DNA of 64,000 bases from Streptomyces sp. SLBN-118 (GTDB lineage: Bacteria; Actinomycetota; Actinomycetes; Streptomycetales; Streptomycetaceae): positions 558,001 to 622,000 of the forward strand of contig NZ_VFNP01000001.1 of NCBI RefSeq assembly GCF_006715635.1, written 5' to 3'. Positions 18,840-36,679 of the stretch are shown in pieces. Each line of letters opens with the position of its first letter. Positions within the stretch are counted from its first letter, which is position 1. A model generated the notes under the pieces. It made no database searches. It saw only the letters and a program-made list of their open reading frames with translations, and was not told the DNA's origin. The position numbers and the translations under genes are program-made.

Positions 18840-18879
18840 GGCCGGGCTCCGGTCGGAAGGATCGGAAGGAGGCGAGGAT

Positions 18880-19095: not shown

Positions 19096-21141
<2,046 letters not shown>

Positions 21142-23383: not shown

Positions 23384-24963
23384 TCCCCCACCTGTTGCGC
23401 GTCGATACGTACGGGCCGCAGGGCGATCGCCGCAGCGGCGGCGACGACCAGCAGGATCGCCGACCCGGTGAGCACCGCGATCTGCAACCCGTCGGTGAAC
23501 GCCTCGATGCTGCCCTGCTTGAGCGCCGCGCCTGCCGGGTCCGGCAGGGACTTGGCGACCTCCATCGCCGCCTGGAGCGTGCCGCGGGTGGCCTCGTCCG
23601 CCGTGGCCGGAAGGCCGGGAGGGATGACGTCCTCGACCTCGCGCCGGTACACCGTCAGCGCGATGCTGCCGAGCATCGCGATGCCGATGGCGCCGCCGAA
23701 CTCGTTGCTGGTCTCCGACAGCGCCGACGCCGACCCCGCGCGCTCCGGCGGGGCGCTCGCGACCACGACGTCGGTGGCCAGCAGCACGACCATGCCCACG
23801 CCGGAGGTCATGATGCTGCTGCCGACGACGATGAGGGCCAGCCCGCTGTCCGCGGTCACCAGGCTCATCACCGCGAAGCCCGCAGCGGCGACCGTGAGTC
23901 CGGTGCAGACAATGAACGCGGGCCGGACCCGCTTGGCCAGGACGCCCGCCAGCGTGAGCCCGAGGAACAGCGTGGCGATGGCGGGCAGTTGCCACATCGA
24001 GGCGACGAACGGCCGCAGGCCCAGCACGGACAGTGCGTACTGCGAGCTGAGCATCATCATGCCGAGCATCGCGAACTGCACCACCGTGGTGGTGACGATG
24101 GCGGTGCTGAACGCGCGGTCGCGGAAGAGCTTGGTGTCGATGAGCGGGTCGCGCGAGCGGCGCTGCCGCCGGATGAACAGCGCGCCGACGGCGAGTCCGG
24201 CGACGACCGCCGCAATCGACTTCCAGTCGTGGTGTCCCTCGGCGAACCTCTTGGCCCCGTAGACGACCGGCAGCACCGCCGCCAGCGAGAGGGCCGCGCT
24301 GAACAGGTCGAACCGTTCCGGGCTGGGGCTGCGGAACTCCGGCAGCAGGATCGGGCCGAGCACGATCACCAGGATCATGACCGGCACATTGATGAGGAAC
24401 ACCGAGCCCCACCAGAATCGCTCCAGCAGCACGCCCGCCGTGATCGGGCCGAGCATCGCGCCCGCGGCGAAGCCCGCGGTCCACAATCCGATCGCCGTGC
24501 GGCGCTGCCCCTCGTCGTGGAACATGTTGCGGATCAGCGACAGCGTCGAGGGCGCCAACGTCGCGCCCGCGACCCCCAGCAGTGCCCGGCTGGCGATGAG
24601 CAGCCCGGGACTGCTGGAGTAGGCGGCGAGGACGGATGCGACGCCGAAGCCCGCCGCGCCGAACAGCAGCAGCTTGCGCCGCCCGATCCGGTCCCCCAGC
24701 GCTCCCATGGTGATCAGCAGGCCCGCCAGCAGGAATCCGTAGATGTCCATCACCCACAGCACCTCGGTGGTGCTGGGGGTGAGATCGGCCGAGACGAAGG
24801 GCACCGCGTAGAACAGCACGCTGATGTCCATCGCCACAAGGACGCAGCACAGCACGATCACGACCAGGCCGAGCCACTCCTCGTACGTGGCTTTGCCCAC
24901 GGTGCCTTGACCGGCAGCGGCCTCGGCGTCTTGGGCGGAGGGAGCGCCGGGGGTCCCGGTCAC
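23380..24963 (-). CDS. MFS transporter, DHA2 (14-TMS) drug:H+ antiporter type
   Basis: 527 residues from GTG 24963, overlapping the peptidase stop by four bases. About 14 hydrophobic segments are present. Motif A is LITMGALGDRIGRRKLLL between TMS 2 and 3, and the antiporter motif C-like stretch LLGVAGATLAPSTLSLI is in the first half. QacA/LfrA relatives export hydrophobic and cationic compounds. In this operon it most likely exports the cluster product, giving self-protection. Confidence 0.9.
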   Translation of the reverse strand: MTGTPGAPSAQDAEAAAGQGTVGKATYEEWLGLVVIVLCCVLVAMDISVLFYAVPFVSADLTPSTTEVLWVMDIYGFLLAGLLITMGALGDRIGRRKLLLFGAAGFGVASVLAAYSSSPGLLIASRALLGVAGATLAPSTLSLIRNMFHDEGQRRTAIGLWTAGFAAGAMLGPITAGVLLERFWWGSVFLINVPVMILVIVLGPILLPEFRSPSPERFDLFSAALSLAAVLPVVYGAKRFAEGHHDWKSIAAVVAGLAVGALFIRRQRRSRDPLIDTKLFRDRAFSTAIVTTTVVQFAMLGMMMLSSQYALSVLGLRPFVASMWQLPAIATLFLGLTLAGVLAKRVRPAFIVCTGLTVAAAGFAVMSLVTADSGLALIVVGSSIMTSGVGMVVLLATDVVVASAPPERAGSASALSETSNEFGGAIGIAMLGSIALTVYRREVEDVIPPGLPATADEATRGTLQAAMEVAKSLPDPAGAALKQGSIEAFTDGLQIAVLTGSAILLVVAAAAAIALRPVRIDAQQVGE

Positions 24964-26510
24964 CGAAGTCCGCCGCTGGTGATCGCCTTGGCGACTGCGG
25001 CCGACTTCGAGGTCGCGCAGGTCGTGCCCGCCGCGGGCGTCTTTCCGGTCACCAGGTACTGGGCCTCGTGGCCGCGCGCGCAGGCGGAGTTGAGGATGCC
25101 GGTGTGCCCGTCGCCCTCGACGGTGAGCAGCCGGCTGCCCTCGATCTTCGCCGCGAGGCGCTGCGCCCATGGGTACGGAGTCGCCGCGTCGTAGCGGGTG
25201 TTGACCAGCAGCACGGGCGGTGCGCCGTGGACCTCCAGCGGGGCGGGCTGGTTGGCGGCGGGCACCGGCCAGCCCAGGCAGCCGCTCGTCCAGTCCCAGA
25301 ACTCCGAGTAGCGCCAGGTGTGCGGGGCCGCCGAGCGCAGGCGGGCGGACTGCACGGCCATGTCGACGAATCCGCGGGTGTTCGGCGCGAAGTCGTGGCA
25401 GCCCACGGTCCGGTACGCCTTGTACTCCGGCTGCAGGAACGACGCGGGGGTGACCAGGCCCGTGGCGTCGGCGTCCCCGGCCAGGCCCGCGGCGGCCGCG
25501 AGCGCACCCGACAGGAGCGGCCAGGCCGACGGCTGGGTCAGGAACGTGTACGCGCCGTTGGCGAGTTCCTCGGCGTTGGCCTTGCGTCCGAGGTTCGACG
25601 CCGGGATGCCCGAGGTCCGCGCCGCGGTCATGACGCTGTCGTACGTGGCGATCACGTCGGCGCCGCGCAGGGCGCACTGCTCATCGGTCTTGCACCAGTC
25701 GGCGAAGCGCCGCAGTGCCTTCTCCGTGGCCCGGGCCTCGTCGAGCGCGGCCGTGCGGGTTTGCAGGCTGTGGTCGACGACTCCGTCGAGCACCATCGTC
25801 CGCACCCGGTCCGGGTGGCGCTGGGCGTAGAGCGAGCCGATCTCGGTGCCGTAGGACAGGCCCAGCCAGGAGATCTTCTGTGCGCCGAGTGCCTTGCGCA
25901 GGGCTTCGACGTCGGAGACGACACTGGCAGTGTCGACGTGGTCGATCAGCGGTCCCGTCGCCTCGCGACAGGCCTGCCCCGCTGCCTTGTTGAACTGCTT
26001 GAGTTGCTCGAAGGCGGCCCGGCTGCGCGGGAACGTACTGACCGCGGAGTCGTGCAGCGGCTTGGGGCAGGCGATCGGCGTGCTCTGGCCGACACCGCGC
26101 GGGTCGAACCCGATCAGGTCGAACCGCTGGCGCAGCGGCGCGAATTCGGGCGCGACGGCGAGCAGGTCGCTGTAGGCCACCGCCCCCATGCCGGAGCCGC
26201 CGGGGCCGCCCGGGTTGAACAGCAGCGGACCGATCTTGTTGTCCTGATCCAGCGCGGGCAGCTTCGACAGAGCCAGGGTGATCTTCTTCCCGTCCGGCTT
26301 CGTCCAGTCCAGCGGCACCTCCATCTGCGCACACTGGGCGCCGGGCACCGAGCCCTCACCGCAGTCGGCCCAGCCGATCTCCGCCGTCGATTCGGCACTC
26401 GCCTCGTGGGCATCGGCCAGAGTGGGCACGACCACCGCGAGGGCCAGAGTGCTGCCCGCGGCGATCAGCCCCAGGACGCGGCGGGACCACCGCGCACGAT
26501 GTTCCGACAT
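24960..26510 (-). CDS. Secreted tripeptidyl aminopeptidase (Tap/SlpD family, peptidase S33)
   Basis: 516 residues. A classical signal peptide occupies about residues 1-38 (RRVLGLIAAGSTLALAVVV, ending ADA). The alpha/beta hydrolase core has the oxyanion region NPGGPGGSG (99-107), the nucleophile Ser219 in GLSYGTE, and later NTRYDAATPY and GDGHTG for the Asp and His. This is the layout of Streptomyces tripeptidyl aminopeptidases, which remove three residues from the N-terminus of proteins outside the cell. Its place inside a biosynthetic operon, overlapping the exporter gene, suggests it processes an exported intermediate or merely travels with the operon. AAGGAA precedes the ATG. Confidence 0.88.
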   Translation of the reverse strand: MSEHRARWSRRVLGLIAAGSTLALAVVVPTLADAHEASAESTAEIGWADCGEGSVPGAQCAQMEVPLDWTKPDGKKITLALSKLPALDQDNKIGPLLFNPGGPGGSGMGAVAYSDLLAVAPEFAPLRQRFDLIGFDPRGVGQSTPIACPKPLHDSAVSTFPRSRAAFEQLKQFNKAAGQACREATGPLIDHVDTASVVSDVEALRKALGAQKISWLGLSYGTEIGSLYAQRHPDRVRTMVLDGVVDHSLQTRTAALDEARATEKALRRFADWCKTDEQCALRGADVIATYDSVMTAARTSGIPASNLGRKANAEELANGAYTFLTQPSAWPLLSGALAAAAGLAGDADATGLVTPASFLQPEYKAYRTVGCHDFAPNTRGFVDMAVQSARLRSAAPHTWRYSEFWDWTSGCLGWPVPAANQPAPLEVHGAPPVLLVNTRYDAATPYPWAQRLAAKIEGSRLLTVEGDGHTGILNSACARGHEAQYLVTGKTPAAGTTCATSKSAAVAKAITSGGLR

Positions 26511-26543: not shown

Positions 26544-27341
26544 TCACGGAGTCCGTGCGACCACCGCGATGAGGGAGCTGCCGGCAGGCGCGGGCAGCCG
26601 GCGGGTGAGCCAGTGATCGATGCGGCTCAGCCCGTACATCAGCCGGTTGACCGGCTGCGCGGGCGCCTTCACGAAGTGGCTGTGCTCCGAGGCGTCCGCC
26701 TTGAAGAGCATCCTGCGCAGGAACAGCGGCACCACTGTCCACGCGTAGTAGTAGCGCAGCTCCAGCACCCTCAGGCCGGCGCCCTCCAGCGCCGCCCGCA
26801 AGGAGGTGCGGGTGTAGCGCCGGAAGTGGCCGCTGAGTTCGTCGAACTCGCTCCACAGCGCCATGAGCGCGGGGACCGTGATCACGCCCCGGCCGTCGGG
26901 GCCGAGCAGGGACGCCACCCGGCGCAGCGCCGCGTCCTGGTCGTCGATGTGCTCGAGCACATCGAGCATCAGCACCAGGTCGTGGTCGTCGCCGCGCGGC
27001 CGCCCCTGCACGAAGTCCGCGACCTCGATGCGGTCGCGTACCGGCGAATCGGGGGCCACGAGTACCCGGTCCGGCTCGATCCCCTCGACGTCGCCGAAGG
27101 GTTCGAGCCGCCGCCAGATGAACCCGTCGCCGCAGCCGACGTCGAGGACCTTCGCCCGGCGGCCGGCCCACCGGCCGTGTTTGCCGACGTAGTGCAGCAC
27201 CTGGTGCTCCCGGGCCCGCCACCACCAGTGCGTGCGGTAGATCTCGCCGTAGACGCCGCTGTACGTGGCGTTCATCAGGGTCGAGTCCCCCGGGTCGGCC
27301 GCCGTCTCGCCCTGGCCGTGAGTTGCCGGTTCCACGCTCAT
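26544..27341 (-). CDS. Class I SAM-dependent methyltransferase
   Basis: 265 residues from ATG 27341, five bases after the luxD-like stop. The SAM-binding motif I is VLDVGCGDGFIWRRLEP, and the acidic residue of motif II is in EGIEPDR. The post-motif LVLMLDVLEHIDDQDAALR matches the Methyltransf_11/23 family, common in lipid and sugar tailoring. A downstream amphipathic and aromatic region (YYYAWTVVPLFLRRML) may contact membrane or a lipid substrate. Substrate is unknown. It sits directly after the Lux-type acid reductase genes, so methylation of a lipid or headgroup is plausible. Confidence 0.82.
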   Translation of the reverse strand: MSVEPATHGQGETAADPGDSTLMNATYSGVYGEIYRTHWWWRAREHQVLHYVGKHGRWAGRRAKVLDVGCGDGFIWRRLEPFGDVEGIEPDRVLVAPDSPVRDRIEVADFVQGRPRGDDHDLVLMLDVLEHIDDQDAALRRVASLLGPDGRGVITVPALMALWSEFDELSGHFRRYTRTSLRAALEGAGLRVLELRYYYAWTVVPLFLRRMLFKADASEHSHFVKAPAQPVNRLMYGLSRIDHWLTRRLPAPAGSSLIAVVARTP

Positions 27342-27346
27342 CGCAC

Positions 27347-28249
27347 CTACTCCGTGGGTTCTGCCCGGCCGCCCTCGCGGGTGGCCACATGGTGGCGTTC
27401 GAGCTCGCGCTCCGAGCCGCGCAGCGCGACGATCTCCTCGAAGCTCGGCATGACCGGGTCGTCGTCTCCGCCGATCAGGCTGCGGGTCACGTCCATCAGC
27501 AGTTGCTTGAGCGCCACCGGGTTGCGCAGCAGCGCGTGCCCGGACACCGCGACCTCGATGACATTGCTCTGGTCGATGTCGGCGGCCCCGAACGCGGTGC
27601 GTACGTCGGCGATGTCCACCCAGTCGTCGTCGGCGGCGACGAAGTTGCGCACCGGGATGGTGAGCTGGGACAGCGCATCGACGGTGGCCGACATTTCCCA
27701 CCAGTTGACGACCCGGGTCTCGCTGACGATCGGCCGCGGGTCCACGGAGTGCTTGTCGATGTGCACCCGGGCGGGCAGGTCGTCCAGCTCCCAGTCCAGG
27801 TAGTCGACGTCGAGCACCTTGAGCAGGGTCTGCCGGCCGTTGACGACGCCCAGCATCAGAGCGATGTTGTCGGCGCACTTGTTGGCGGCCGCGAACTGCA
27901 GTACCGGCAGCGCGGAGAGGCTGGTGGCGACCATCGAGACGGTCTCCACACCCTCGCGCTTGCGCACGTTGTCGACCACCGCCGTGAGGGCCTGCATCAG
28001 CTCGGTGACGGAATAGTCGACGATCTCGCCGTCGCTGATCCCGACGTGGTCGAGCGCGTCGAACCGGTAGACCGTTGCGCCGTTGTAGACCAGCATCAGC
28101 GCGAGCACCCCGGAGCTGCGCATCCGCTGGCCGAATCCCGGCGCCATGACGACGATCGGCCCGGTGCCGGCATTGTCCGACGGGCTGTCGCGCCATACGG
28201 CCACGGTCCGGCCGTTGTTCGTAGTCACGTCGAAACACTCTGTCGACAT
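27347..28249 (-). CDS. luxD: LuxD-like acyl transferase/thioesterase (fatty acid supply for aldehyde formation)
   Basis: 300 residues from ATG 28249, preceded by AGGAGGGGGAG. It follows LuxD of luminous bacteria closely: ALDHVGISDG (LuxD HHVGLSSG), SMVATSLSALPV for the nucleophile elbow (Ser110 in TSLSA; LuxD ASLSA), LGVVNGRQTLLKVLDVDYL (LuxD GVVNLRDTLEKALGFDYL), the acidic residue in ADDDWV (LuxD NNDDWV), and His238 in SGHALL. LuxD cleaves acyl-ACP or acyl-CoA to release the fatty acid for the LuxE/LuxC reductase. It lies immediately after the luxE-like gene and near luxA- and luxC-like genes, so the assignment is supported by both sequence and context. Confidence 0.88.
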   Translation of the reverse strand: MSTECFDVTTNNGRTVAVWRDSPSDNAGTGPIVVMAPGFGQRMRSSGVLALMLVYNGATVYRFDALDHVGISDGEIVDYSVTELMQALTAVVDNVRKREGVETVSMVATSLSALPVLQFAAANKCADNIALMLGVVNGRQTLLKVLDVDYLDWELDDLPARVHIDKHSVDPRPIVSETRVVNWWEMSATVDALSQLTIPVRNFVAADDDWVDIADVRTAFGAADIDQSNVIEVAVSGHALLRNPVALKQLLMDVTRSLIGGDDDPVMPSFEEIVALRGSERELERHHVATREGGRAEPTE

Positions 28250-28295
28250 GGCTCCCCCTCCTGTGTGATCTGTTGCTTGTCTGTCCTGTTGCCCG

Positions 28296-29465
28296 TCAGT
28301 CGGTCCGCACCGTCTCGGCGAGGCGCAGGGCACAGCCGTGGTGGCTGGAGGTGCGCATCCTGCGGTCGATGTGAACCGTGGTGCCGGCCCGCCCGCACGG
28401 GCAGTTGTCGGTCTCGGCGGATCCGAAGTCCTCCGCCAGCAGGAAGCACGGGTAGCTGCGCGCCGTCGGGTCCAGGTACGACATCAGGCCGACCTGCCCG
28501 GCCGAAACCGGGGTCAGGTCGCGTGGGTCGCGCACGATCACCTCGACCCACGGCGGCACATGCTTGCGGTGGTGCTCGCACTCGATGAACGCCGTGTTCA
28601 GCTCGACCTGGTTGAACACGTCGCGTACCTGCTGTTCCGATGCCAGGCCGAAGGTGTCCATGGCGAGTGACCGCAGCCGGTCCGGGTCGAGTTTGGTGGA
28701 CTCGTTCTTCTTCCAGCCGCCGCCGGTGATCACCGCCATCCGGTCGCCCGCGGACAGCTTGATGCTGTTGTCCGACATGTGGCGCAGCAGTTCCGCCGTG
28801 AAGACCGGCGGACCGGCCACGCACACGAACTTCCCGTCGGCCAGCGCGCTTTCCAGGTCGCGTACGACGTCGCGCAGGCGCAGCACACCGTCGGCGACAT
28901 AGGAGCGAGTGGAGGCGAACATCTCGACGAGCGTCATGATGTAGCTGATCCACACGCCGTCCGCCTCGCGACGGTTCGGCCCGAGGTGGATCATCTGGCC
29001 GTCGTCGTCGAGGTCGATGTCGCCGTAGAGGGTGCGCCAGATGTCGCCCTCGGGACGCAGTGAGCCGGCCAGCCGCTCCAGCGACGGTTCGTCTCGCCAG
29101 ACCATGCTCTGCGTGCCGCTGGTACCGCTGGACTTGAACACGTCGCAGTCCGCCGCGGGGACGCTGCGTACCTCGACGCGCTTGAACATCCGGGTCGGGA
29201 ACTGAGGCACCCGCTCCAGGCTCCCGGGGGCGCCGAGGTCGGCGAGCGTGGACCCGCTCGACTCGGCGAAGGCCCGGTAGTCCGCGTTGTGCTCCAGGTG
29301 GTGCGCCACCGCCGCGGTGATGAACCGGTGCCGCAGCGCGGCCTGGTCGGCGCTCGGCATCGCCCACCAGTCGTCGTCCTCGAAGATCAACCGGTCGAGT
29401 TCGGCGAACTCGGTGCCGGTGAGCGCGATGGACGACCGCGGCCCGGCGTCGATGTGCGTCGTCAT
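28296..29465 (-). CDS. luxE: LuxE-like acyl-protein synthetase (fatty acid activation)
   Basis: 389 residues. The adenylate-forming P-loop is FKSSGTSGTQS (110-120), as in LuxE, followed by GGGWKKNE and by Cys355/Cys357 (CPCGRAG). Near the C-terminus Cys378 (HHGCALRL), 11 residues from the end, is placed like the acylated cysteine of LuxE. LuxE activates fatty acid with ATP, takes the acyl group on its Cys and passes it to LuxC. The ATG at 29465 shares one base with the stop of the LuxA-like gene (TGATG), so the two are translationally coupled. Confidence 0.88.
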   Translation of the reverse strand: MTTHIDAGPRSSIALTGTEFAELDRLIFEDDDWWAMPSADQAALRHRFITAAVAHHLEHNADYRAFAESSGSTLADLGAPGSLERVPQFPTRMFKRVEVRSVPAADCDVFKSSGTSGTQSMVWRDEPSLERLAGSLRPEGDIWRTLYGDIDLDDDGQMIHLGPNRREADGVWISYIMTLVEMFASTRSYVADGVLRLRDVVRDLESALADGKFVCVAGPPVFTAELLRHMSDNSIKLSAGDRMAVITGGGWKKNESTKLDPDRLRSLAMDTFGLASEQQVRDVFNQVELNTAFIECEHHRKHVPPWVEVIVRDPRDLTPVSAGQVGLMSYLDPTARSYPCFLLAEDFGSAETDNCPCGRAGTTVHIDRRMRTSSHHGCALRLAETVRTD

Positions 29466-30544
29466 CACGAGACCGCGCTCGGCTTCCAGCCGATACGGGG
29501 AAGGACTTCCTCGGCGAACATGTTCATGTTCTCCAGGATCCGGTCGCGGTTGAGGGTGGCCTCGACGCCGAGCTGGAAGTTGCGCACGCCGGTGACCTCC
29601 ATGGTCCGGCCGAGGCGGTCCACGCACTCCTCGACGCTGCCGACGATGCTGTTTTCCAGCATGTAGTTGGTGAAGTCGGCGTTGGTGCGGTCACCGCGCA
29701 GCGCCGCTGCCTGCCATTCGCCGTACTGGAACCGGTAGTTCGGGAGCTTCTGCAGCTGCTCCATGGTGAACGCGGCGTCGTCGTGCTCCTGCTCCCACCA
29801 GCACATGTGCTTCCAGATCTCGTCATGCGCCTTCTGGGTGGTCTCGGCGACATGGGCGACGGTGCACAGGGCGTGCGGCACGGTGGTCGGGTCGATGCCG
29901 TGGCTCTCGGCGGTCTCGTTGTAGAGGTCGATGATCGAGCGCATCGCCTCGTACGCGCCGATGGCCGGCATGATCAGCGGAATGCCGCGCGAGGCCGCCC
30001 ACTCGATCGTCGACGGCGACTGGCCCACGCCGTACAGCGGCGGGGTCGGCTTGGTGTACTGGGTGGGGAACGGCGTCACGTCGGGCAGCGTTATCTCCTG
30101 GCCCTCCCACTTGGCGCTGCCGGTCTCCCAGATGCTGCGGATGATGTCGACGTACTCGGTCTGCAGGATGTGGGACTTGGCCGGGTCCACGCCGAAGGCC
30201 TCGAAGTCCTTCGGGAAGTACCCGCGGCCCACACCGAGGATGAACCGGCCGTGGCTGAGCTGGTCGAGCATGTTGGTCTGCTCGGCGATGCGGATCGGGT
30301 GGTCGAGCGGCAGGATGACCACCGCGGTGCCGACCTTGATCTGCTTGGTCTGTCCCAGCACATAGCCCGCCATGGTCAGCGTGTTCGGGCACAGGCCGTA
30401 GCGGGTGAAGTGGTGCTCGAGCAGCCAGGCCGACTGGTAGCCGATCTTGTCGGCCTCGACGGCGAAGTCCATCGAGTAGTCGAAGACCTCGGTCTCCGAC
30501 CAGTGGTCGGGGTGGGCCGTCGTCAGCATCACGCCTACGTCCAT
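29465..30544 (-). CDS. LuxA-like flavin-dependent monooxygenase (bacterial luciferase alpha-subunit homolog)
   Basis: 359 residues, close to the 355 of Vibrio harveyi LuxA. By eye it aligns without gaps through the first 113 residues: Glu43-His44-His45 in LLEHHFTRYGL (LuxA LLEHHFTEFGL), DQLSHGRFILGVGRG (LuxA DQMSKGRFRFGICRG), and KDFEAFG with Asp113. The LuxA reactive Cys106 is Gly106 here. Trp250 is kept, and the mobile loop region (about 262-290, ending YGEWQAAALRG) that most luciferase-like oxidoreductases lack is present. It should use FMNH2 and O2, perhaps on the aldehyde made by the Lux-type reductase. GAGGAG lies eight bases before the ATG. No LuxB gene is present, so light production is not implied. 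Confidence 0.9.
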   Translation of the reverse strand: MDVGVMLTTAHPDHWSETEVFDYSMDFAVEADKIGYQSAWLLEHHFTRYGLCPNTLTMAGYVLGQTKQIKVGTAVVILPLDHPIRIAEQTNMLDQLSHGRFILGVGRGYFPKDFEAFGVDPAKSHILQTEYVDIIRSIWETGSAKWEGQEITLPDVTPFPTQYTKPTPPLYGVGQSPSTIEWAASRGIPLIMPAIGAYEAMRSIIDLYNETAESHGIDPTTVPHALCTVAHVAETTQKAHDEIWKHMCWWEQEHDDAAFTMEQLQKLPNYRFQYGEWQAAALRGDRTNADFTNYMLENSIVGSVEECVDRLGRTMEVTGVRNFQLGVEATLNRDRILENMNMFAEEVLPRIGWKPSAVS

Positions 30545-30621
30545 CAGAATTCTCCTCTGTGTTATTCGTCTTGGGTTATTCGGTCGGGAAACTTCGGGCG
30601 TCGGGCGCTTGCCGCGGCCCC

Positions 30622-32076
30622 TCACATGAGCAGGTCGCGCAGGCGGCGGTGCTCCAGGAACTCGGACTGGTCGATCGGCACGACCATTCCCTTGCCGTAG
30701 TTGAGCCGCGGGGCCTCCACCGAGACCATCCGGGTCATCATCTGCAGCGGCTGGAGGCCGTCGTGGGAGCCGCCGAGCCGGAAGAACGGCGACAGTCCCG
30801 CCTCGACGAACCGGCACGCGCCGCGCCGGGCCAGCTCGTGCCGCAGCTGTTCGTGCAGGGACCACGGCGCCAGGCCGATGGTCTGCACCGTCGGGTCGAC
30901 CCACTTCGACACCTCGGCCAGGTCGGCGACCGGGTGCACGAACACCGTCCGGGCGCTGGGGAGTTCAGTGACGGTGGCCGGGTCGGTGATCAGGATCGAT
31001 CCCCAGGAGCCGGTACGGACGCGCTGCCCGAGGAACTGCTGCGCGGCGACCTCCATGGACGCCTGCGCGGCCTCGTCGGCGGTGACCGAGGTACGCGGCA
31101 GCATGTCCTCGTAGCGCACCAGCTCGGCCTGCAGCCGGTCGGCGAACTCCTCGGGGTCGGCGTCGGTGAACACCTGGTGGGTGGAGAAGCAGGCACGCTG
31201 CTCGTACATCGACGCGTCGTGCGCGATGCCGCGGGTCGCCCGTGCCATGTCCGCGTCCTTGCCGACGACGGTGAAGCTGCGCCGCGGGCCGTAGGGCACC
31301 ACGATCGCCTCGGACGAGCAGTTCCGGTAGGCAACCTGCACCGCCTCGGCACCGCCCCAGGCGCAGATCACGTCGGCGCTGCCGAGGATCTCCTTGCCCA
31401 GGTCGCTGTCGCGCTCCCAGAACACCGCGCTCACCGACCTGGTCACCGGGTGATTGGGGTCGATGTCGGTGAAGCTCTGAGCGAGTACGACGGCGGTGGC
31501 CGGCTCGCCCGCGGCGTACTTGAGCACCGAGGTGTTCTTGGTCAGCAGCGCGCGGATCAGCGAGACCGTGGTCGAGTACGGGACATTGCCCGGCAGGATG
31601 TGCACGCTGCGGCCGCGCGGATAGGCGCGCACCTCGGCGTCCTCGCGGGGGATCCAGCGGTCCATGATCTGCCGGTGGCCGAGCTCGACGGCCACCATGT
31701 CGTGCAGCTGTGCGTGGGCGCGCAGCGTCGCCGAGATCAGGTCGGCCTCGGCGTCGGCCATCTGCTGGGAGTAGCCGTGCATCCGCTTCAGCTCACGGAC
31801 GTAGAGCCTGCGGCGCGCGTACTCCTCGTTGTTCCACAGGTGCCCGATCCGGTTGAGGTAGGCAACAATCTCCTGCAGCGGGGTCTCGGCGAGGTCGGTC
31901 GGCGGGTTGTGCAGCCGATCGACGAGCGCCCGGGTCAGCCGCGGGACCGCGGCCCTGGCGCCGTTGGGGAACTCCAGTACGCGGGGGTCGTTGTCGGGCT
32001 CGACGCGCTCCCCCCACACCATGAACGGATGGGTCTTCACCTTCGTTGGCGCCGGCAGCACCACGTGACCGGTCAC
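30622..32076 (-). CDS. luxC: LuxC-like long-chain acyl-CoA/acyl-enzyme reductase (fatty aldehyde forming)
   Basis: 484 residues from GTG 32076. It is an aldehyde-dehydrogenase superfamily member of the LuxC family: LPGNVPYSTTVSLIRALLTKN (161-181) is the dinucleotide-proximal motif, and the acylated nucleophile is Cys296 in YEQRACFSTHQ (Cys286 in V. harveyi LuxC). It uses NADPH to reduce the acyl group from LuxE to an aldehyde. It starts six bases after the PIG-L stop and is followed after 77 bp by the LuxA-like gene, giving the order C-A-E-D on this strand. All catalytic elements look intact. Confidence 0.9.
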   Translation of the reverse strand: MTGHVVLPAPTKVKTHPFMVWGERVEPDNDPRVLEFPNGARAAVPRLTRALVDRLHNPPTDLAETPLQEIVAYLNRIGHLWNNEEYARRRLYVRELKRMHGYSQQMADAEADLISATLRAHAQLHDMVAVELGHRQIMDRWIPREDAEVRAYPRGRSVHILPGNVPYSTTVSLIRALLTKNTSVLKYAAGEPATAVVLAQSFTDIDPNHPVTRSVSAVFWERDSDLGKEILGSADVICAWGGAEAVQVAYRNCSSEAIVVPYGPRRSFTVVGKDADMARATRGIAHDASMYEQRACFSTHQVFTDADPEEFADRLQAELVRYEDMLPRTSVTADEAAQASMEVAAQQFLGQRVRTGSWGSILITDPATVTELPSARTVFVHPVADLAEVSKWVDPTVQTIGLAPWSLHEQLRHELARRGACRFVEAGLSPFFRLGGSHDGLQPLQMMTRMVSVEAPRLNYGKGMVVPIDQSEFLEHRRLRDLLM

Positions 32077-32082: not shown

Positions 32083-32784
32083 TCACACCTCCTTCGACTG
32101 GCTGATGTGTGTGTCCCAGGTCCCGCGCAGCACGCTGAACGCCTCCGCCGCGGCGGTGTTCGCGTGCGCGCCGAACAGTTCGGCCTGCAGGCCGATGGCT
32201 TTGAGCGAGCGCGGGTGCGGAAAGTCCCGCAGTTCCGACGCGTAGCAGCGCATGGCGTCGAGCTTGTTCGCCAGCGTGTCGGTGATGTCGCTGTAGAGAG
32301 CGGGCACGAACGGTTCGCGGCCTGCGTAACCCGCGTCGGTGGCCGACAGGGTGGAGAAGCCGAGCAGCCAGCGCACCGGGCTCGCGTGCGGCCGGCACGC
32401 GATCATGCAGGCACGGGTGGTCAGTTCGTGGTCGATGTTGAGGTCGCCGCTGTGGTGGGTGTAGACGGTGTGCGGGGCGAGCCGTTCGACGACGGCGCCG
32501 ATCTGCTGGGCCAGGATGAGCAGGGGGTAGGTGTCGAGCTGGTTGTCGGCGAGGTCGAGCCGGTGCACGCCGGTGCTCCCCAGGACCGCGCAGGACGCTG
32601 CCGTCTCCTGTGCCGACAGTGCCGCGCTGGCCTCGGGATCGGGGTCGTCGGCCCGCGACGTCTTGCCCTCGGCGAGGATCAGTACGTGTACCTCGTCGCC
32701 GGCCTTGGCGTGCTTGGCCAGCGTGCCGCCGGGGCCGATCACCTCGTCGTCGGGATGCGCGACGACGGCGAGCACGGTGCTCAT
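32083..32784 (-). CDS. PIG-L family N-acetyl-sugar deacetylase
   Basis: 233 residues from ATG 32784. The zinc-binding motif AHPDDE is at residues 9-14, and the third ligand is in THHSGDLNIDHELTTRA. PIG-L enzymes remove the N-acetyl group from GlcNAc-linked molecules, as in GlcNAc-phosphatidylinositol, mycothiol and some antibiotics. In this operon, beside a UDP-sugar dehydrogenase and aminotransferases, it probably exposes an amino group on a sugar of the product. It overlaps the WbqC gene stop by four bases (ATGA) and is separated from luxC by six bases. Confidence 0.9.
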   Translation of the reverse strand: MSTVLAVVAHPDDEVIGPGGTLAKHAKAGDEVHVLILAEGKTSRADDPDPEASAALSAQETAASCAVLGSTGVHRLDLADNQLDTYPLLILAQQIGAVVERLAPHTVYTHHSGDLNIDHELTTRACMIACRPHASPVRWLLGFSTLSATDAGYAGREPFVPALYSDITDTLANKLDAMRCYASELRDFPHPRSLKAIGLQAELFGAHANTAAAEAFSVLRGTWDTHISQSKEV

Positions 32785-33467
32785 GACGGGGTCCCCCTGA
32801 CGATGTCGGCGCTCTCCGGCCCGCAGTGCATCAACAGGTCGAGTACGGACAGGTGCGACTGGAAGCCGTCGCGCCCCTGCGGGTACTCCGGGTGCGCGTA
32901 GTGGAAGTACTCGATCCGGATGGCGTCCAGGCCCGTGGTGTCCAGGTAGTTCGTCGCCTGCGGCCCCGCGATGAACGCGTCGGCGCCGTACTTCCGGCAC
33001 AGCAGCGGGATGATGGTCTGGCGGTCGAACTCGGGCAGTTGCAGCGTCGAGATCCGGTGCACCGGGCAGTCGATCTTGAGCTGTTCGAGGCAGTAGTCGA
33101 TGAACGGCAGGCACACCTCGTTGAGCGTGGCGAACTCGGTGGCGTAGTAGGTCTCCAGGAACTCGGCGTGCAGCCTGAAGTAGGGCGCCCGCCGGTAGGC
33201 CATCTGAATGGCCTTCCAGTGCCTGCGCCGCCAGCCGTCGTCGACCAGCCGCACCTCGTCGATCGGCCGCTCGGCCCGCAGGTCCTCGTGCGAGAGCGGA
33301 ATGGTCAGGAGCTGTTCGCCGCCGGGACCGCCGATCTTGTTGCGGTTGAGCATGTTCCGCCGGCCGATCCGGCTGCGGTCGTGCAGCACGAACAGGTCGG
33401 AGGCGGCGATCTTGGCGAAGTAGCCCAGCCACGGCAGGTAGGCGGGCTGGTGCGCGCTGATGATCAT
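32781..33467 (-). CDS. WbqC family protein
   Basis: 228 residues from ATG 33467. The WbqC signature HQPAYLPWLGYFAKIAASD occupies residues about 6-24, followed by NMLNRNKIGGPGGEQLLTIPL and the conserved YATEFATLNEVCLPFID. WbqC proteins occur in O-antigen and antibiotic loci, often with aminosugar genes, and are suspected to act in amino-acid or acyl attachment to sugars; the activity is not firmly established. It overlaps the GNAT stop by four bases and the PIG-L start by four bases. The start is preceded by a weak GGAGG-like context (GGGGAGGC), consistent with coupled translation. Confidence 0.88.
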   Translation of the reverse strand: MIISAHQPAYLPWLGYFAKIAASDLFVLHDRSRIGRRNMLNRNKIGGPGGEQLLTIPLSHEDLRAERPIDEVRLVDDGWRRRHWKAIQMAYRRAPYFRLHAEFLETYYATEFATLNEVCLPFIDYCLEQLKIDCPVHRISTLQLPEFDRQTIIPLLCRKYGADAFIAGPQATNYLDTTGLDAIRIEYFHYAHPEYPQGRDGFQSHLSVLDLLMHCGPESADIVRGTPS

Positions 33468-34399
33468 CGCGCCTCCCCGTACGGCCAGTGGACGAGACGG
33501 GTCGCCGCGGCCAGCGCGCCCCAGCCCGCCTTGAACTTCTCCTGCCCGTCGCCGGCCGCCGCGCCGAGGTCGACCGTGCCGATACCGCGGTCGGCCAGTG
33601 CTGTCAGGGCGGACCAGAAGGCCAGATGGCCGGCGTTGGCCTTGCGCCCGTGCTCTGAGGTCAGCTGCATGAGGTGGTACGCCCCCGCCGCACCCACCGC
33701 GAACACCGACGCGGCAAGGACCGCGTCGCCGTTGGCGACGACGGTGGTGACTGTCTGGTCGCCGTCGAGGAGGAAGGCAATGTCCGATGCGTTGTAGGCG
33801 GATCCGACGCCGTTGCGTCCCAGGGTCTGCCGGTGCAGCCTGAGCAGGTCGTCCCCGTGCGCGGGCAGCGCGACCGATGCCACGAGGCCGAGCGCGCCCG
33901 CCCTCCGGACGGCTGTGCGGGAGCTGCCCTTGGCTGCCTTCCACACCGCGTCCGCGCCCTCGGTGAGGTCGAGGAGGAAGGTGTTCCTGCCGGGCCGCGC
34001 GGGCCAGTGCCCCAACTGCCGTTCCAGGCCGGACGAAGCGGCGGCCGGAGGGAGCAGAGTGGACAGTTCCGTCAGAGCGTGGTCACGGCACACGACCTCG
34101 GCAAGCTCGGCGAAGCCGGGCAGCTCTCCCTGCCAGTCGGCGGACACGGCCACCGATCCGTAGCCGTAGCAGCCGATCTGCGCCCGCCGGCCGGATACGC
34201 ACAGCGGCAACAACAGCTCACCCGAGTGCCCCCACCGCACCGCTGTCGGCACGAAGCGCAGGTCCGGCGAGTCCGCAAGACCGAGCGTGAGCCAGCACCG
34301 CCGCGCGAAGGGCAGTTCGGCACGCGCGGCTGCCAGCCGGGCGTCCCATGCGGACTCCGACAGCACCGACGCGGCAGTGCGCTCACGGAGATCAGTCAC
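33464..34399 (-). CDS. GNAT/FemAB-like acyl- or aminoacyl-transferase (BioF2-like domain)
   Basis: 311 residues from GTG 34399, overlapping the upstream aminotransferase by eight bases. The second half has the BioF2/Acetyltransf_6 layout: KGSSRTAVRRAGALGLV, then AAGAYHLMQLTSEHGRK, HLAFWSALTALADRGIGTVDLG and EKFKAGWGA. These are shared by FemAB-like enzymes that transfer amino acids from tRNA or acyl groups from CoA onto amino sugars. It may acylate the amine made by the aminotransferase or deacetylase. The specific donor is unknown. Confidence 0.75.
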   Translation of the reverse strand: MTDLRERTAASVLSESAWDARLAAARAELPFARRCWLTLGLADSPDLRFVPTAVRWGHSGELLLPLCVSGRRAQIGCYGYGSVAVSADWQGELPGFAELAEVVCRDHALTELSTLLPPAAASSGLERQLGHWPARPGRNTFLLDLTEGADAVWKAAKGSSRTAVRRAGALGLVASVALPAHGDDLLRLHRQTLGRNGVGSAYNASDIAFLLDGDQTVTTVVANGDAVLAASVFAVGAAGAYHLMQLTSEHGRKANAGHLAFWSALTALADRGIGTVDLGAAAGDGQEKFKAGWGALAAATRLVHWPYGEAR

Positions 34400-35642
34400 G
34401 ACCCGCCTCCTGTTCCCGCACCGAACGGTCGGCCGCGACCATCGCCTCCACCAGGAACTGCGCCGTGAGTCGCGGCTGCGGCTGCTTGGCCACGGTCAGC
34501 ACTCGCGGCCACAGCGCATCGGCTCCGGCCATCGATCCCGCTGCGAAGGCGGCGTACGGAGCCAGCCTGTGCAGGGGGTAGTAGTTCCACGTGCTCGGGA
34601 CGCCGCCCTCGGCCAGCGCCCGCGCGAAGAGAAATCGCTGCCCGGGACGCCGGAACACCAGCTCGATTCCCGGCCCCAAATCGGGGTCGGCGGCCACCGG
34701 CTGACAGGTGGTCAGCTCGCCGACGACAGCGGAGCGGACACGCTCATGGGTGAGCGCGGCCTCGTCCGCGACGGAGGATGCGGTCCGTAGCAGAGCAGCA
34801 GCCGACGCGACCTCCCAGCGGGACGCCTCGCCCTGGGTGACCTGACCCGCCTCGGTGGGCAGGTGGTCGGCCTTGGTGTTCGACCAGCCGGGTGTGCGCG
34901 ACTGCGCGCGCTGGACCGCGGCCCGTACGAAGCCCGGTGCGTGCGCCACGATCCGCTCAGCCACGGCCCGCCGCAGCGGAGCCAGTTCACCGCGCCGCCG
35001 CGGCCCGGCGGCACCGGCGACCGGCGCCGAGGAGAGAGACACCGAGGTGAGCAGAGCGCCGCCGCCGACTCCGCCCAGTGGCTTGCCCTCGCCGAAACTG
35101 AGCACGATCGGACAGGCAGCCTCCCGGAACCGGCGCAGCACCCTGGGCGCGACGCTCGCCTGCGCCAGGTCGAGCACCACTGTGCCTCCGCGCTCATGGA
35201 TCTGCGCCGCGTGTGCCCTCCACTCGTCCAGGCCGAGTGCGTTGGTCAGCACCACCGCACGACCGTCGAGGTCCACCGAGGTGAACGCGGCACCCTGGAC
35301 GTGGTCGAGGTCGACCAGCACCGGTCGCGCGCCCGCCGCGAGTACGGCGTCCGCCACGGCGGGGCAGTTGAAGGTGGACAGCACGACCTCGGCAGCACCG
35401 GTCTGCCGCACCGCGAGTTCGAGCGCGGCGCGCCCGGTCGAGGTGAGGACACACCGGTTCCGTCCCGCATGCTCGCGCAGCCGGGCGGCGAGGCCCGTCC
35501 GCGCGTGCCGCGGCCGGGCCGCCGCGCGCGCAGTCGCGGCGACGCGGCCCGCCGTCATGCGGGACGGGTGGAGGTAGCCGACCGGGCGGCGCGGCACGGG
35601 CGCGTACCACAGGTCGGACATCTCTGCCTGGTCATGGATCAC
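34392..35642 (-). CDS. DegT/DnrJ/EryC1-type PLP aminotransferase, divergent
   Basis: 416 residues from GTG 35642, two bases after the epimerase stop; ATG 35621 is an alternative start. The PLP lysine is Lys187 in SFGEGKPLGGVGGGAL, and the Asp that contacts the PLP nitrogen is in VVLDLAQAS. The N-terminal third (PVGYLHPSRMTAG, CVLTSTGRAALELAV) fits the fold, but the sequence is less canonical than the second aminotransferase in the operon. It could aminate a keto-sugar or, given the linked Lux-type reductase, a fatty aldehyde. No residue here decides between these. Confidence 0.78.
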   Translation of the reverse strand: MIHDQAEMSDLWYAPVPRRPVGYLHPSRMTAGRVAATARAAARPRHARTGLAARLREHAGRNRCVLTSTGRAALELAVRQTGAAEVVLSTFNCPAVADAVLAAGARPVLVDLDHVQGAAFTSVDLDGRAVVLTNALGLDEWRAHAAQIHERGGTVVLDLAQASVAPRVLRRFREAACPIVLSFGEGKPLGGVGGGALLTSVSLSSAPVAGAAGPRRRGELAPLRRAVAERIVAHAPGFVRAAVQRAQSRTPGWSNTKADHLPTEAGQVTQGEASRWEVASAAALLRTASSVADEAALTHERVRSAVVGELTTCQPVAADPDLGPGIELVFRRPGQRFLFARALAEGGVPSTWNYYPLHRLAPYAAFAAGSMAGADALWPRVLTVAKQPQPRLTAQFLVEAMVAADRSVREQEAGRD

Positions 35643-35644: not shown

Positions 35645-36679
35645 CTACCGGACACCCGCCCCGTCGGCGGTCCACTGCGGCCAGTCAGTGCGCTCCAGAC
35701 GCAACGGCAGTTGCCCCGAGCCGCCGCGGACCCACTCGATCGTCTCCCTCAGTCCCGCCTCGAAGTCGCGCACCGGCTCGTAGCCCAGCAGCTTGCGGGC
35801 CTTGGTCAGGTCGGGCCTGCGCGACTGGATGTCGGGGCCGGTGTGCGGGATCTGCTGGATCCGGGCGTCGGTGCCGCTCAAGTCCCCCGTCAGCCTGGCC
35901 AGTTCGGCCACCGTCAGGTCGTTGGTGTCGTCACCGATGTTGAAGGCCTCACCGATGGCCTCCGGCGCGTGCAGGCAGCGGATCAGGCCGGCGGCGAAGT
36001 CCTCCGCGTGGCACCAGGCCCGCGACTGCGATCCGTCGCCGTGTACGGTGATCGGCTGCCCGGCCACCGCCTGCGCGGCCAGGATTCCGACCGCGTACGC
36101 GCCGGTCCGCAGCGGGCCGTAGACATTGAACGGCCGCACGATCGCGAACGGCAGCTTGTCCTCGGTGCCATAGGCCGCGGTCATCGACTCCGCCGTGACC
36201 TTGCTGACCGCGTAGCCCCAGCGCGGGTCGCCGGTCCGCACCGACAGCCACTCGCTCTCCTCTGCGTCCTTGGCGTCGCTGCCGTACACCTCGCTGGTGC
36301 TCAGCAGCAGGAAGCGGCGCAGCCCCGGCATGCGCGCGGCGTAGTCCAGGGCGACCGCGGTGCCGTCGATGTTGACGCGCAGGGTTTCACGGGGCGCGTT
36401 GCGCACCTTGTTCACCCCGAGCAGTGCCGCGGCGTGTACGACGTAGTCGACCTCGCCGAACTGATCGAGCGACCCTCGCTCGGTTATGTCGGCCCTGCCG
36501 GTCTCCACCGCGGGGTCGTCCAGCAGCCCGGACAGCCAGATCGGTGTGCCGCCGGGCTCCCGGTTGTCGACCAGGACCACTCGGTGGCCCGACCGGACCA
36601 GACCGGCTGCGACCCAGGTCGCCAGGAAGCCGAATCCGCCGGTGATCAGAGTGCGCGGACCAGTGTGCTGTTCGCTCAT
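35645..36679 (-). CDS. NAD-dependent epimerase/dehydratase (nucleotide-sugar SDR)
   Basis: 344 residues from ATG 36679. The NAD motif is TLITGGFGFLATWVAAGL, and the catalytic set is STSEVYG plus Tyr156-x3-Lys160 (YAVSK). RPFNVYGP and SRAWCHAEDFA are typical of extended SDRs acting on UDP/dTDP sugars, close in style to UDP-glucuronate decarboxylase and 4-epimerases. The ATG overlaps the stop of the upstream aminotransferase by four bases. With the UDP-sugar dehydrogenase two genes upstream, a modified uronate or amino-sugar donor is likely. Confidence 0.85.
   Translation of the reverse strand: MSEQHTGPRTLITGGFGFLATWVAAGLVRSGHRVVLVDNREPGGTPIWLSGLLDDPAVETGRADITERGSLDQFGEVDYVVHAAALLGVNKVRNAPRETLRVNIDGTAVALDYAARMPGLRRFLLLSTSEVYGSDAKDAEESEWLSVRTGDPRWGYAVSKVTAESMTAAYGTEDKLPFAIVRPFNVYGPLRTGAYAVGILAAQAVAGQPITVHGDGSQSRAWCHAEDFAAGLIRCLHAPEAIGEAFNIGDDTNDLTVAELARLTGDLSGTDARIQQIPHTGPDIQSRRPDLTKARKLLGYEPVRDFEAGLRETIEWVRGGSGQLPLRLERTDWPQWTADGAGVR

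Follow-up and report, generated by a model that had tools for sequence, protein, structure and literature searches.

The window, by which we mean the whole 64,000-nucleotide stretch of Streptomyces sp. SLBN-118 DNA that was analyzed, contains a tight minus-strand run in which four lux-type genes are transcribed in the order luxC-luxA-luxE-luxD, just where the original prediction had placed them (Table 1). The quartet is one part of a larger run of sugar and natural-product genes. For luxD, translation most likely starts at the ATG at 28249, behind AGGAGGGGG; a start at 28333 was dropped in its favor. A flavin reductase gene, 5 bp from its neighbor, ends the tight run, in agreement with the prediction that such a gene closes the same operon. 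The reductase could work for some other enzyme.

Table 1. Genes of the lux-type locus and its surroundings, in window positions, with identity to the counterparts on Mycobacterium branderi plasmid pJCM12687
Gene or product	Position	Strand	Family and features	Identity
Flavin reductase	22868..23374	-	PF01613, 117 bits; possible FMNH2 source	
MFS exporter (DHA2 type)	23380..24963	-	PF07690	35-36%
TAP-like alpha/beta hydrolase	24960..26510	-	PF08386, PF00561	42%
SAM methyltransferase	26544..27341	-	PF13489; 5 bp after luxD	
luxD	27347..28249	-	300 aa; acyl transferase/thioesterase; Ser110-Asp208-His238	
luxE	28296..29468	-	389-390 aa; acyl-protein synthetase; start overlaps luxA stop	
luxA-like	29465..30544	-	359 aa; FMN-dependent aldehyde monooxygenase of LuxA type	
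luxC	30622..32076	-	484 aa; acyl-protein/acyl-CoA reductase; GTG start behind AGGAGG	
PIG-L deacetylase (sugar core)	32083..32784	-	PF02585	69%
WbqC-like (sugar core)	32781..33467	-	PF08889	57%
GNAT/FemAB-like acyltransferase (sugar core)	33464..34366	-	PF13480	48%
Divergent DegT-type PLP enzyme (sugar core)	34392..35642	-	PF01041, 36.9 bits	47%
SDR (sugar core)	35645..36679	-	PF01370	64%
DegT aminotransferase, ArnB/PseC-like (sugar core)	36676..37875	-	PF01041, 240.4 bits	59%
TIM-barrel isomerase-like (sugar core)	37868..38815	-	PF01261	54%
UDP-HexNAc 6-dehydrogenase-like	38812..40062	-	PF03721/00984/03720	53-54%
GNAT acetyltransferase	43639..44142	+	PF00583	40%

The first gene of the conserved sugar core encodes the UDP-HexNAc 6-dehydrogenase-like protein, which is best matched by UDP-ManNAcA dehydrogenase entries. 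By sequence, the SDR is possibly UDP-glucuronate-decarboxylase-like; this decarboxylase step is uncertain because an unspecified epimerase/dehydratase (184.7 bits) ranks above UDP-glucuronate decarboxylase 1 (136 to 137 bits) in the PDB and the NCBIfam dTDP-glucose 4,6-dehydratase model (125.7 bits) outscores UXS-type models (71.6 bits). The ArnB/PseC-like aminotransferase scored 151.5 bits for ArnB and 282.1 bits for the PseC model, the cut-off of which is 423.5. The TAP-like hydrolase has, by eye, a signal-like N-terminus, and its PDB matches are led by protease/carboxylesterase entries, with secreted hydrolase and TnmK2 entries also present; it is a possible extracellular unmasking enzyme. 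The plus-strand GNAT acetyltransferase, a possible masking (self-resistance) enzyme, is encoded outside the minus-strand run. A lux-less form of the sugar core, with 11 counterparts, is found on M. branderi pJCM12687.

Family membership and retained residues

When searched against profile HMMs, each of the four proteins was best matched by its own Lux model. Pfam scores were 284.9 bits for LuxC (PF05893; cut-off, 21), 208.7 bits for Bac_luciferase with the LuxA-like protein (cut-off, 27.9), 223.6 bits for LuxE (PF04443; cut-off, 24.9), and 143.2 bits for Acyl_transf_2 with LuxD (PF02273; cut-off, 20.3). The top NCBIfam models were LuxC (398.8 bits), LuxA alpha (255.4 bits, against 140.7 for beta), LuxE (297.8 bits), and LuxD (149.5 bits), all below the respective luminous-protein cut-offs of 750, 600, 550, and 420; for the LuxA-like protein, the LuxA model outscored LuxB and others among the best 25 of 30. 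Solved or characterized relatives included LuxC and LuxE of PDB 7xc6 (334 and 256.1 bits), PDB 1tht for LuxD (113.4 bits), and Vibrio harveyi LuxA (234.4 bits). The description of these proteins as close counterparts of marine Lux proteins is to be read as 29 to 40% identity with five Vibrio loci over the best tblastn segments (V. harveyi LuxC, 39%; LuxD, 29%; LuxA, 34%; LuxE, 38%).

LuxD acts through a Ser-Asp-His triad, LuxC through an active Cys, and LuxE through an acyl-accepting C-terminal Cys. All were retained as predicted: Ser110, Asp208, and His238 of LuxD were invariant in the alignment (n = 9 sequences), LuxC keeps its Cys within ACFS, and LuxE keeps SSGTSG, GGWK, and the C-terminal GCAL motif. 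The P-loop ascribed to LuxE did not stand, as we take SSGTSG to be an adenylation-type motif rather than a classical P-loop. Judging by their families, these proteins and the reductase could produce fatty aldehyde and FMNH2.

The LuxA-like protein conserves His44, Arg107, Ser176, Thr179, and Trp250, among which we take His44 to be catalytic and Arg107, Ser176, and Thr179 to form the phosphate site of LuxA. It also shares with V. harveyi LuxA a loop of 35 residues that measures 7 residues in LuxB and 8 to 25 in seven outgroup proteins. Half of the tabulated V. harveyi LuxA positions were kept (15/30) and half were changed (15/30), the latter including positions 106, 110, 125, 175, 194, and 283. 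The nearest solved structure by sequence was PDB 8cbb (277.6 bits), titled as a homodimeric luciferase from Enhygromyxa salina, which was also the best fold match of the predicted structure, a monomer model (37% identity). Tyr49, Gly106, and Phe110 are common to the two proteins, and the window protein is probably homodimeric.

Ancestry, recurrence, and the missing LuxB

In careful trees, the window LuxA-like protein, LuxA, and LuxB shared one clade relative to the seven outgroup proteins (support, 100/99), and luminous LuxA and LuxB together formed a single clade nested within the LuxA-like family that contains the window protein (99/94). An arrangement with LuxB branching off first was rejected by the AU test (p = 0.0028), for which groups were defined after the quick tree was seen; the LuxB branch is long (1.6) and possibly misplaced. 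The E. salina luciferase fell closer to luminous LuxA/LuxB (86/95, not starred), with the window protein in a deeper clade than either E. salina or luminous LuxA. Because LuxA and LuxB nest inside the LuxA-like family, the sequences suggest that the window quartet predates the two-part luciferase of luminous bacteria, which fits the original suggestion of an ancestral or repurposed operon.

The other lux trees gave similar groupings. Window LuxD grouped with LuxD of luminous bacteria, and starred branches of the quick trees split Lux-type LuxC (except that of Nocardia) and LuxE from generic ones, with which the window proteins did not fall. In the careful trees, Nocardia LuxC lay outside the Lux clade and support for the Lux-type LuxE clade was weak (91/82). 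A group of window and luminous sequences alone was rejected for LuxC (p = 0.025) but not for LuxE (p = 0.10). All four proteins were placed in Lux clades and not in generic aldehyde dehydrogenase, hydrolase, or luciferase-like families.

The block also recurs in other actinomycetes, so that neither of the outcomes named as contrary to the original prediction, generic-family trees or a block missing from relatives, was observed. The quartet was present at 6/64 loci of a genome scan. Outside the window, the LuxA-like gene is accompanied by luxC, luxD, and luxE relatives in six genera or MAGs, where the neighboring genes differ; in Micromonospora, these neighbors are different natural-product-type genes. 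Linkage of lux genes to the sugar core recurs in S. graminofaciens (SGFS_036630, LuxD; SGFS_036680, WbqC), and further linkage came from matches on contigs of equal size (5225, 26692, 31292, and 14394).

The full lux set is not present, a point not emphasized in the original prediction, as no LuxB was found anywhere in the genome with a V. harveyi LuxB query. Apart from the LuxA-like protein (98.5 bits), this query retrieved a single weak luciferase-like protein (48.3 bits), compared with 735 bits in the V. harveyi positive control. LuxB was likewise not found in six other quartet genomes (Micromonospora, Frankia, Nocardia, Rhizobacter, Spongiibacter, and one MAG); the absence is thus a result for these seven genomes. 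The window therefore lacks the luxA-luxB pair of canonical lux operons and, by families and trees, has Lux-clade luxC, luxD, and luxE scoring below the NCBIfam luminous cut-offs.

Proposed role and alternatives

We lean, at somewhat better than even confidence, toward a LuxB-less lux module from a lineage preceding the luxA duplication, with a tailoring role in an amino-sugar antibiotic-type operon. Based on families and kept residues, LuxD would remove a fatty acyl group from its carrier and release the acid, LuxE would activate the acid with ATP and pass it via its C-terminal Cys to LuxC, and LuxC would reduce the thioester with NADPH to the fatty aldehyde. The flavin reductase, perhaps that at 22868 to 23374, may supply FMNH2 to a LuxA-like homodimer, forming a flavin peroxide that would attack the aldehyde, or an aldehyde-sugar amine adduct, and leave an oxidized fatty group on the product. 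The sugar core could plausibly yield a 2,4-diamino-2,4-dideoxypentose through the HexNAc 6-dehydrogenase, decarboxylase-like SDR, ArnB-like aminotransferase, (amino)acylation, and PIG-L deacetylation, in that order. The product may then be masked by the GNAT, exported by the MFS protein, and unmasked by the TAP-like hydrolase. The evidence that the sugar product receives the aldehyde is gene linkage. The two-subunit luciferase of luminous bacteria would have arisen later from this lineage via luxA duplication.

The complete aldehyde gene set, the kept LuxA residues and 35-residue loop, and the resemblance to the E. salina luciferase in sequence, fold, and three shared residues would also suit a working light emitter, in which the homodimer is a true luciferase supplied by LuxCDE and the glow is perhaps weak or conditional. 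We consider this unlikely, as the lux genes lie in a biosynthetic run with an exporter and a hydrolase, with no riboflavin gene among those named, and the LuxA-like protein belongs to the deeper clade; no luminous Streptomyces was among the literature matches listed (for one query, 30 of 80). No better placed is a scheme in which the LuxCDE aldehyde is joined to an amine (by reductive amination or aldol-type chemistry) and oxygenation by the LuxA-like enzyme takes place at nitrogen or some other site instead of at the aldehyde. Two aminotransferase-type genes and the amino-sugar logic of the core accord with it, as do luxA-free LuxC/LuxE pairs in other contexts; however, the aldehyde is favored as the common substrate because the LuxA-like gene accompanies luxC, luxD, and luxE amid different neighbors.

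An oxygen or oxidative-stress sink, of the kind proposed for the Mycobacterium marinum mel2 locus and for ancestral lux genes generally, is less probable still. The mel2 locus has a LuxA-like gene with a proposed role in resisting reactive oxygen, but passages of its description give no clear LuxE homologue (PMC1793995), and the window lux genes are tightly spaced with the sugar core, exporter, and hydrolase. Both a chance gathering of generic-family genes and their recent acquisition from luminous bacteria would suit the NCBIfam shortfall and the LuxE grouping that was not rejected, but they are very improbable given the starred LuxC and LuxE branches, the rejected LuxC grouping, the similar grouping of the lux genes, and the recurrence of the block.

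The pre-light role of lux genes is a long-standing question. Here, a single LuxA-type protein with the whole aldehyde set, branching before the LuxA/LuxB duplication, adjoins genes pointing to a specific function other than light, and the question thus becomes testable. If the tailoring role is correct, luciferase-type oxidation of fatty aldehydes joins the routes by which natural products are built, and LuxD beside WbqC/PIG-L offers a genome-mining handle for a rare cluster family. More tentatively, and with doubt outweighing belief, lux may have begun as a secondary-metabolism module, before duplication and before light, in which a homodimeric LuxA oxidized LuxCDE aldehydes to decorate amino-sugar-type products; the Streptomyces operon would then still represent such a module today, with luciferase chemistry completing the antibiotic that it makes.

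Comparison with known systems

The canonical luxCDABE(G) operons of Vibrio, Photobacterium, Aliivibrio, Photorhabdus, and Shewanella share LuxC, LuxD, LuxA, and LuxE relatives with the window, which differs in lacking LuxB, in its C-A-E-D order, and in being embedded in a sugar gene run. A homodimeric luciferase is already known from the title of PDB 8cbb, the E. salina protein that gave the best sequence and fold match. LuxB-less lux operons are also already known: Vannier et al. 2020 (NAR Genom Bioinform) reportedly described the types CEDA, CAED, and AxxCE in marine metagenomes, of which CAED is the window order and CEDA that of Rhizobacter/UBA7310. A passage of PMC8582858 refers to that work.

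Like the window, mel2 places a LuxA-like gene in an actinomycete; passages of its description liken mel2 domains to LuxC, LuxD, LuxG, and LuxH, relate MelF almost equally to LuxA and LuxB, and mention no sugar core (PMC1793995). The window, in contrast to mel2 as described in those passages, has LuxE. Generic LuxE-LuxC pairs (Azospirillum, Pantoea, Rhizobium, and Chloroflexota plasmids) are adjacent genes that, by family, activate acyl groups and reduce them to aldehyde; neither LuxA nor LuxD is annotated in the stretches covered, and the pairs branch apart from the window in trees.

M. branderi pJCM12687 carries UGDH-TIM-DegT-SDR-DegT-GNAT-WbqC-PIG-L in the window order (47 to 69% identity), together with MFS, GNAT, and TAP-like hydrolase genes; unlike the window, it lacks luxC, luxA, luxE, and luxD and has no methyltransferase gene separating PIG-L from the exporter and hydrolase genes. 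The combination of GNAT, MFS, and TAP-like hydrolase in the window presumably follows the logic of puromycin self-resistance (pac/pur8/nap), and we take the core enzymes to follow prumycin in their 2,4-diamino-2,4-dideoxypentose logic.

The four lux-type proteins

The original prediction of a lux-type gene set on the minus strand was borne out by profile searches: the top Pfam and NCBIfam models are LuxC, LuxA alpha, LuxE, and LuxD, with scores far under the NCBIfam cutoffs for luminous proteins. In a PDB search, LuxC and LuxE matched two chains of 7xc6 (334 and 256 bits, respectively), and LuxD matched 1tht (113 bits). Plasmid record NZ_OQ683454, which shows luxC, luxD, and luxE, served as a lux-type yardstick; its luxC and luxE scored 336 and 231 bits, and luxD adjoins them. 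Generic plasmid-borne homologs scored no higher than 135 bits for LuxC (40 listed out of 46 records, a single lux-type one included) and no higher than 140 bits for LuxE (all 35 listed, two lux-type ones included). These model and plasmid scores, together with the trees described below, disfavor assignment of the lux genes to generic families.

LuxD retains its Ser/Asp/His, LuxC retains ACFS, and LuxE retains SSGTSG, GGWK, and GCAL; these are the catalytic residues of the lux literature. The LuxD residues and the LuxC cysteine had been called conserved from the start. For LuxE, the claimed C-terminal Cys (GCAL) stands, while the motif described as a P-loop reads SSGTSG.

The LuxA-like protein matched PDB entry 8cbb, titled as the homodimeric luciferase of Enhygromyxa salina (278 bits), and Vibrio harveyi LuxA (234 bits), with the next PDB entries much lower (105 bits; LuxB, 99 bits). 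The four top PDB matches of its predicted structure (mean pLDDT of 95.1) are the four chains of 8cbb, followed by V. harveyi LuxA. Glu43, His44, His45, Arg107, Ser176, Thr179, and Trp250 are retained, and the mobile loop has 35 residues, as in V. harveyi LuxA (LuxB, 7; outgroup, 8 to 25, n = 7). Half of the tabulated positions (15/30) are changed relative to V. harveyi, including 106 Gly, 110 Phe, 125 His, 175 Gln, and 194 Ala. The E. salina luciferase has Tyr49, Gly106, and Phe110 in common with the window protein but lacks Trp250, which the latter keeps.

The set comprises C, A-like, E, and D; LuxB was not found in the genome. A V. harveyi LuxB query of this and six other quartet genomes retrieved only the LuxA-like protein in each, with one extra luciferase-like protein at 48 bits in the present genome; the scope was these 7 genomes, outside of which lie the metagenomic LuxA relatives. 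The positive control, V. harveyi, scored 735 bits.

Distribution and phylogeny of the quartet

Genomes were scanned for LuxA relatives with a single short motif, W[LVT]LEHHFT, by which relatives without the motif are missed. Among the 64 loci obtained, luxA adjoined luxB in 34, a LuxA-like gene without luxB was accompanied by C, D, and E relatives in 6, and only distant luciferase-like genes (21 to 27% identity) were present in 24. The six quartets belong to Micromonospora trifolii, Rhizobacter sp. Root1221, Gammaproteobacteria UBA7310 (a MAG), Spongiibacter thalassae, "Candidatus Frankia meridionalis," and Nocardia brasiliensis; thus, other actinomycetes (Micromonospora, Frankia, and Nocardia) carry such a block. 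The Micromonospora E and D genes lie just beyond the boundary of the scanned locus. The LuxC and LuxD proteins of N. brasiliensis are the most distant among the six. Because the Frankia LuxA-like gene matches as two pieces in different open reading frames, it looks interrupted; the adjoining luxE, luxD, and luxC frames are open.

In genus samples, LuxD or WbqC was found in the present genome only (1/392 for the LuxD family PF02273, then 1/392 and 1/334, the last sample apparently being mostly the same genomes); PF02273 occurred in 3/394 class-sample genomes, namely, the present genome, the Frankia record (G552), and one 22-bit match barely above the cutoff. A protein search with a nine-LuxD alignment gave 29 matches (28 with PF02273). 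Named matches came from Streptomyces graminofaciens, S. clavifer, S. hypolithicus, Streptomyces sp. NPDC058685 and NPDC058739, Actinophytocola, and, more distantly, Streptomyces sp. NPDC059517. LuxA relatives numbered 65 down to 233 bits, the next score being only 177 bits. In a further LuxA search, 4 of 199 passed E ≤ 1e-40, one of them being the present genome. The other three scored 144 to 175 bits, and the two of them placed in trees fell outside the Lux-type family. Scanning genome contigs with the window LuxD as sole query gave 36 stretches and no relatives, and plasmid searches with LuxA, WbqC, and LuxD gave Mycobacterium branderi WbqC as the only useful match.

In the careful LuxA tree (47 proteins; quick tree, 86), the Lux-type family, comprising the window protein, 20 sampled relatives, 5 luxB-less loci, LuxA, and LuxB, stood apart from 7 other luciferase-like proteins (100/99). 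Luminous LuxA and LuxB formed one clade (99/94) nested within this family. A LuxB-first history with later LuxB losses was rejected under the model used, as grouping everything but LuxB cost 34 log units (p-AU = 0.0028); grouping all family members except LuxA and LuxB was also rejected (P = 0.0006). Because the AU groups were chosen after the quick tree was known and LuxB is a long branch, we regard these results as support for the nesting rather than proof. The ancestral or repurposed operon originally proposed fits such a nesting. On inclusion in the tree, the E. salina luciferase fell near the luminous group and proteobacterial LuxB-less proteins (86/95); the window protein branched more deeply, grouped with actinobacterial proteins.

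The window LuxC, LuxA-like, and LuxE proteins were all placed with the Lux-type clades. In the careful LuxC tree, Lux-type proteins except that of Nocardia formed a clade against generic LuxC (99/99), and adding Nocardia was not rejected (P = 0.22). Lux-type LuxE formed a single clade (97 in the quick tree, 91/82 in the careful tree). The unrooted LuxD tree recovered a luminous group (100), joined by three proteobacterial LuxB-less proteins at 83, and a group of window, Micromonospora, and Frankia proteins (95). Since the four gene trees are roughly congruent, the quartet may already have been together before LuxB arose, although some of the nodes are weak. Recent transfer from luminous bacteria is formally not rejected for LuxE (P = 0.10), is rejected for LuxC (P = 0.025), and is disfavored for LuxA, the window protein lying outside the LuxA-plus-LuxB clade.

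These trees are samples. The quick and careful LuxA trees omit 23/65 and 45/65 LuxA-family proteins, respectively, and every LuxA tree omits that of Frankia because of its interrupted frame. Luminous loci were left out of the LuxC, LuxE, and quick LuxA trees (22/34), the careful LuxA tree (27/34), and the LuxD tree (26/34). Locus L115, a very long branch, was excluded from the careful LuxC and LuxE trees; in the LuxD tree, P0255 was dropped for its short length and P0258 because it does not resemble LuxD. Generic LuxC and LuxE were represented by 10 plasmid matches, drawn from 46 (LuxC) and 35 (LuxE) records, together with 2 genome matches.

Genomic setting

The genome (7.79 Mb, two contigs; window, G000:C1:558001-622000) carries the lux genes within a longer minus-strand run. 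In order, this run encodes a nucleotide-sugar dehydrogenase, a TIM-barrel protein, a DegT aminotransferase, an SDR, a second, divergent DegT-type protein, a GNAT/FemAB-like protein, a WbqC-like protein, a PIG-L deacetylase, the lux quartet, a methyltransferase, a TAP-like hydrolase, an MFS exporter, and, last as predicted, a flavin reductase. As intergenic gaps are ≤77 bp and many adjacent genes overlap, the run is likely a single operon. The lux genes (GC, 0.66 to 0.70; GC3, 0.93 to 0.96) resemble neighboring genes in composition.

Coordinates of features in the window and at related loci
Feature	Location	Strand	Remark
luxC	window 30622-32076	-	
luxA-like	window 29465-30544	-	
luxE	window 28296-29468	-	
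luxD	window 27347-28249	-	
Minus-strand run	window 40062 to 22868	-	dehydrogenase to flavin reductase
GNAT gene	window 43639-44142	+	other strand than the run; 40% identical to pJCM12687 GNAT
lstA-lstF-like set	window 10060-18839	+	six genes
Membrane desaturase-fold protein	window 42117-43118	-	top NCBIfam model GntB, guanitoxin arginine hydroxylase (40.9 bits; cutoff, 380)
Lux-less core	M. branderi plasmid (L088) 11465-22807		core plus exporter, GNAT, hydrolase on megaplasmid; integrase and transposase genes nearby
luxA-like pieces	Frankia (L035) 10001-11499		unmatched stretch between two pieces
Riboflavin genes	UBA7310 (L005) 3211-4332 and 14730-15863		GTP cyclohydrolase II and RibD type; flank luxC-E-D-A on opposite strand
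Protein near lux genes	Rhizobacter (L004) 1382-2392; UBA7310 (L005) 18407-19429		43% identical; FGE-sulfatase domain in Rhizobacter copy
PLP decarboxylase near lux genes	Rhizobacter (L004) 11788-13221; UBA7310 (L005) 13265-14707		54% identical; Pfam on UBA7310 copy
Luciferase-like genes	S. cathayae plasmid (L089) 8001-14629		single run of four monooxygenase genes plus several for AMP-binding and acyl-CoA dehydrogenase proteins; unrelated cluster

All eight sugar-core genes recur, in the same order and at 47 to 69% identity, on M. branderi plasmid pJCM12687, which also has counterparts of the MFS exporter (35 to 36%), TAP-like hydrolase (42%), and GNAT (40%). In contrast to the window, no lux gene or methyltransferase intervenes among these plasmid genes; the lux genes and methyltransferase therefore look like an optional module.

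Equal contig sizes provide indirect evidence that lux-core linkage recurs in relatives: LuxA and WbqC relatives share sizes 5225, 26692, and 31292; LuxD and WbqC relatives, 14394 and 26692; and LuxA and LuxD relatives, 4475, 24094, and 26692 (size 2900, with LuxA and LuxD proteins, was not counted because unrelated matches have it too). In S. graminofaciens, the spacing of LuxD (SGFS_036630) and WbqC (SGFS_036680) fits D, E, A, C, PIG-L, WbqC, judged by locus tags only.

The Micromonospora quartet is surrounded by dehydroquinate-synthase-like, aminotransferase, 2OG-oxygenase, and radical SAM genes, and that of Nocardia adjoins an octopine-dehydrogenase-like gene and genes for a PLP enzyme and an FAD enzyme. 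Given these other neighbors, the lux module seems to visit differing biosynthetic clusters. The Micromonospora order is luxE-luxD-luxC, two dehydroquinate-synthase-like genes, an aminotransferase, an FkbM methyltransferase, and luxA, possibly a C7-cyclitol-type cluster that uses the lux module. Riboflavin genes, present at the UBA7310 locus, occur beside lux operons in luminous bacteria.

Elsewhere in the window, a six-gene set resembling the lipstatin genes lstA-lstF encodes a pair of ketoacyl-synthase-III-like proteins, an AMP ligase whose relatives are olefin beta-lactone synthetases (469.7 bits; cutoff, 900), a 3-beta-HSD-type SDR, an NRPS protein that combines AMP-binding with carrier domains, and a formyltransferase. 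With GntB as its top model, the desaturase-fold protein may act as a hydroxylase on a substrate that is not a fatty acid.

Proposed function and known systems

Beyond gene identity, all functional steps are ones that we infer. From structural relatives, a UDP-HexNAc 6-dehydrogenase would open the sugar pathway. The SDR would follow; UDP-glucuronate decarboxylases are among its best named structural relatives, and NCBIfam ranks dehydratase models higher. An ArnB-like aminotransferase, acyl or aminoacyl transfer, and deacetylation could then yield a 2,4-diamino-pentose like the one in prumycin. The GNAT would mask, the exporter export, and the TAP-like hydrolase (whose best PDB matches are protease/carboxylesterase entries) unmask the product, much like the trio of puromycin producers. 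The lux module would make a fatty aldehyde and oxidize it, or its amine adduct, in a late step. Because 8cbb, the nearest solved relative of the LuxA-like protein, was deposited as a luciferase, light emission is conceivable.

A literature search of partial coverage, and hence weak evidence, retrieved no Streptomyces or actinomycete lux set, no WbqC-type sugar cluster, and no 8cbb paper. Vannier et al. reportedly described, in 2020, LuxB-less lux operons in marine metagenomes, including the order CAED, which is that of the window. A review (PMC8582858) mentions novel lux operon organizations in further taxa. An earlier lux-like actinomycete locus, mel2 of Mycobacterium marinum, is without a clear LuxE (PMC1793995), whereas the window has LuxE. 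The PDB, moreover, holds a homodimeric luciferase structure (8cbb). Thus, LuxB-less lux sets and a homodimeric luciferase were known beforehand, and it is the host and setting that are unexpected here.
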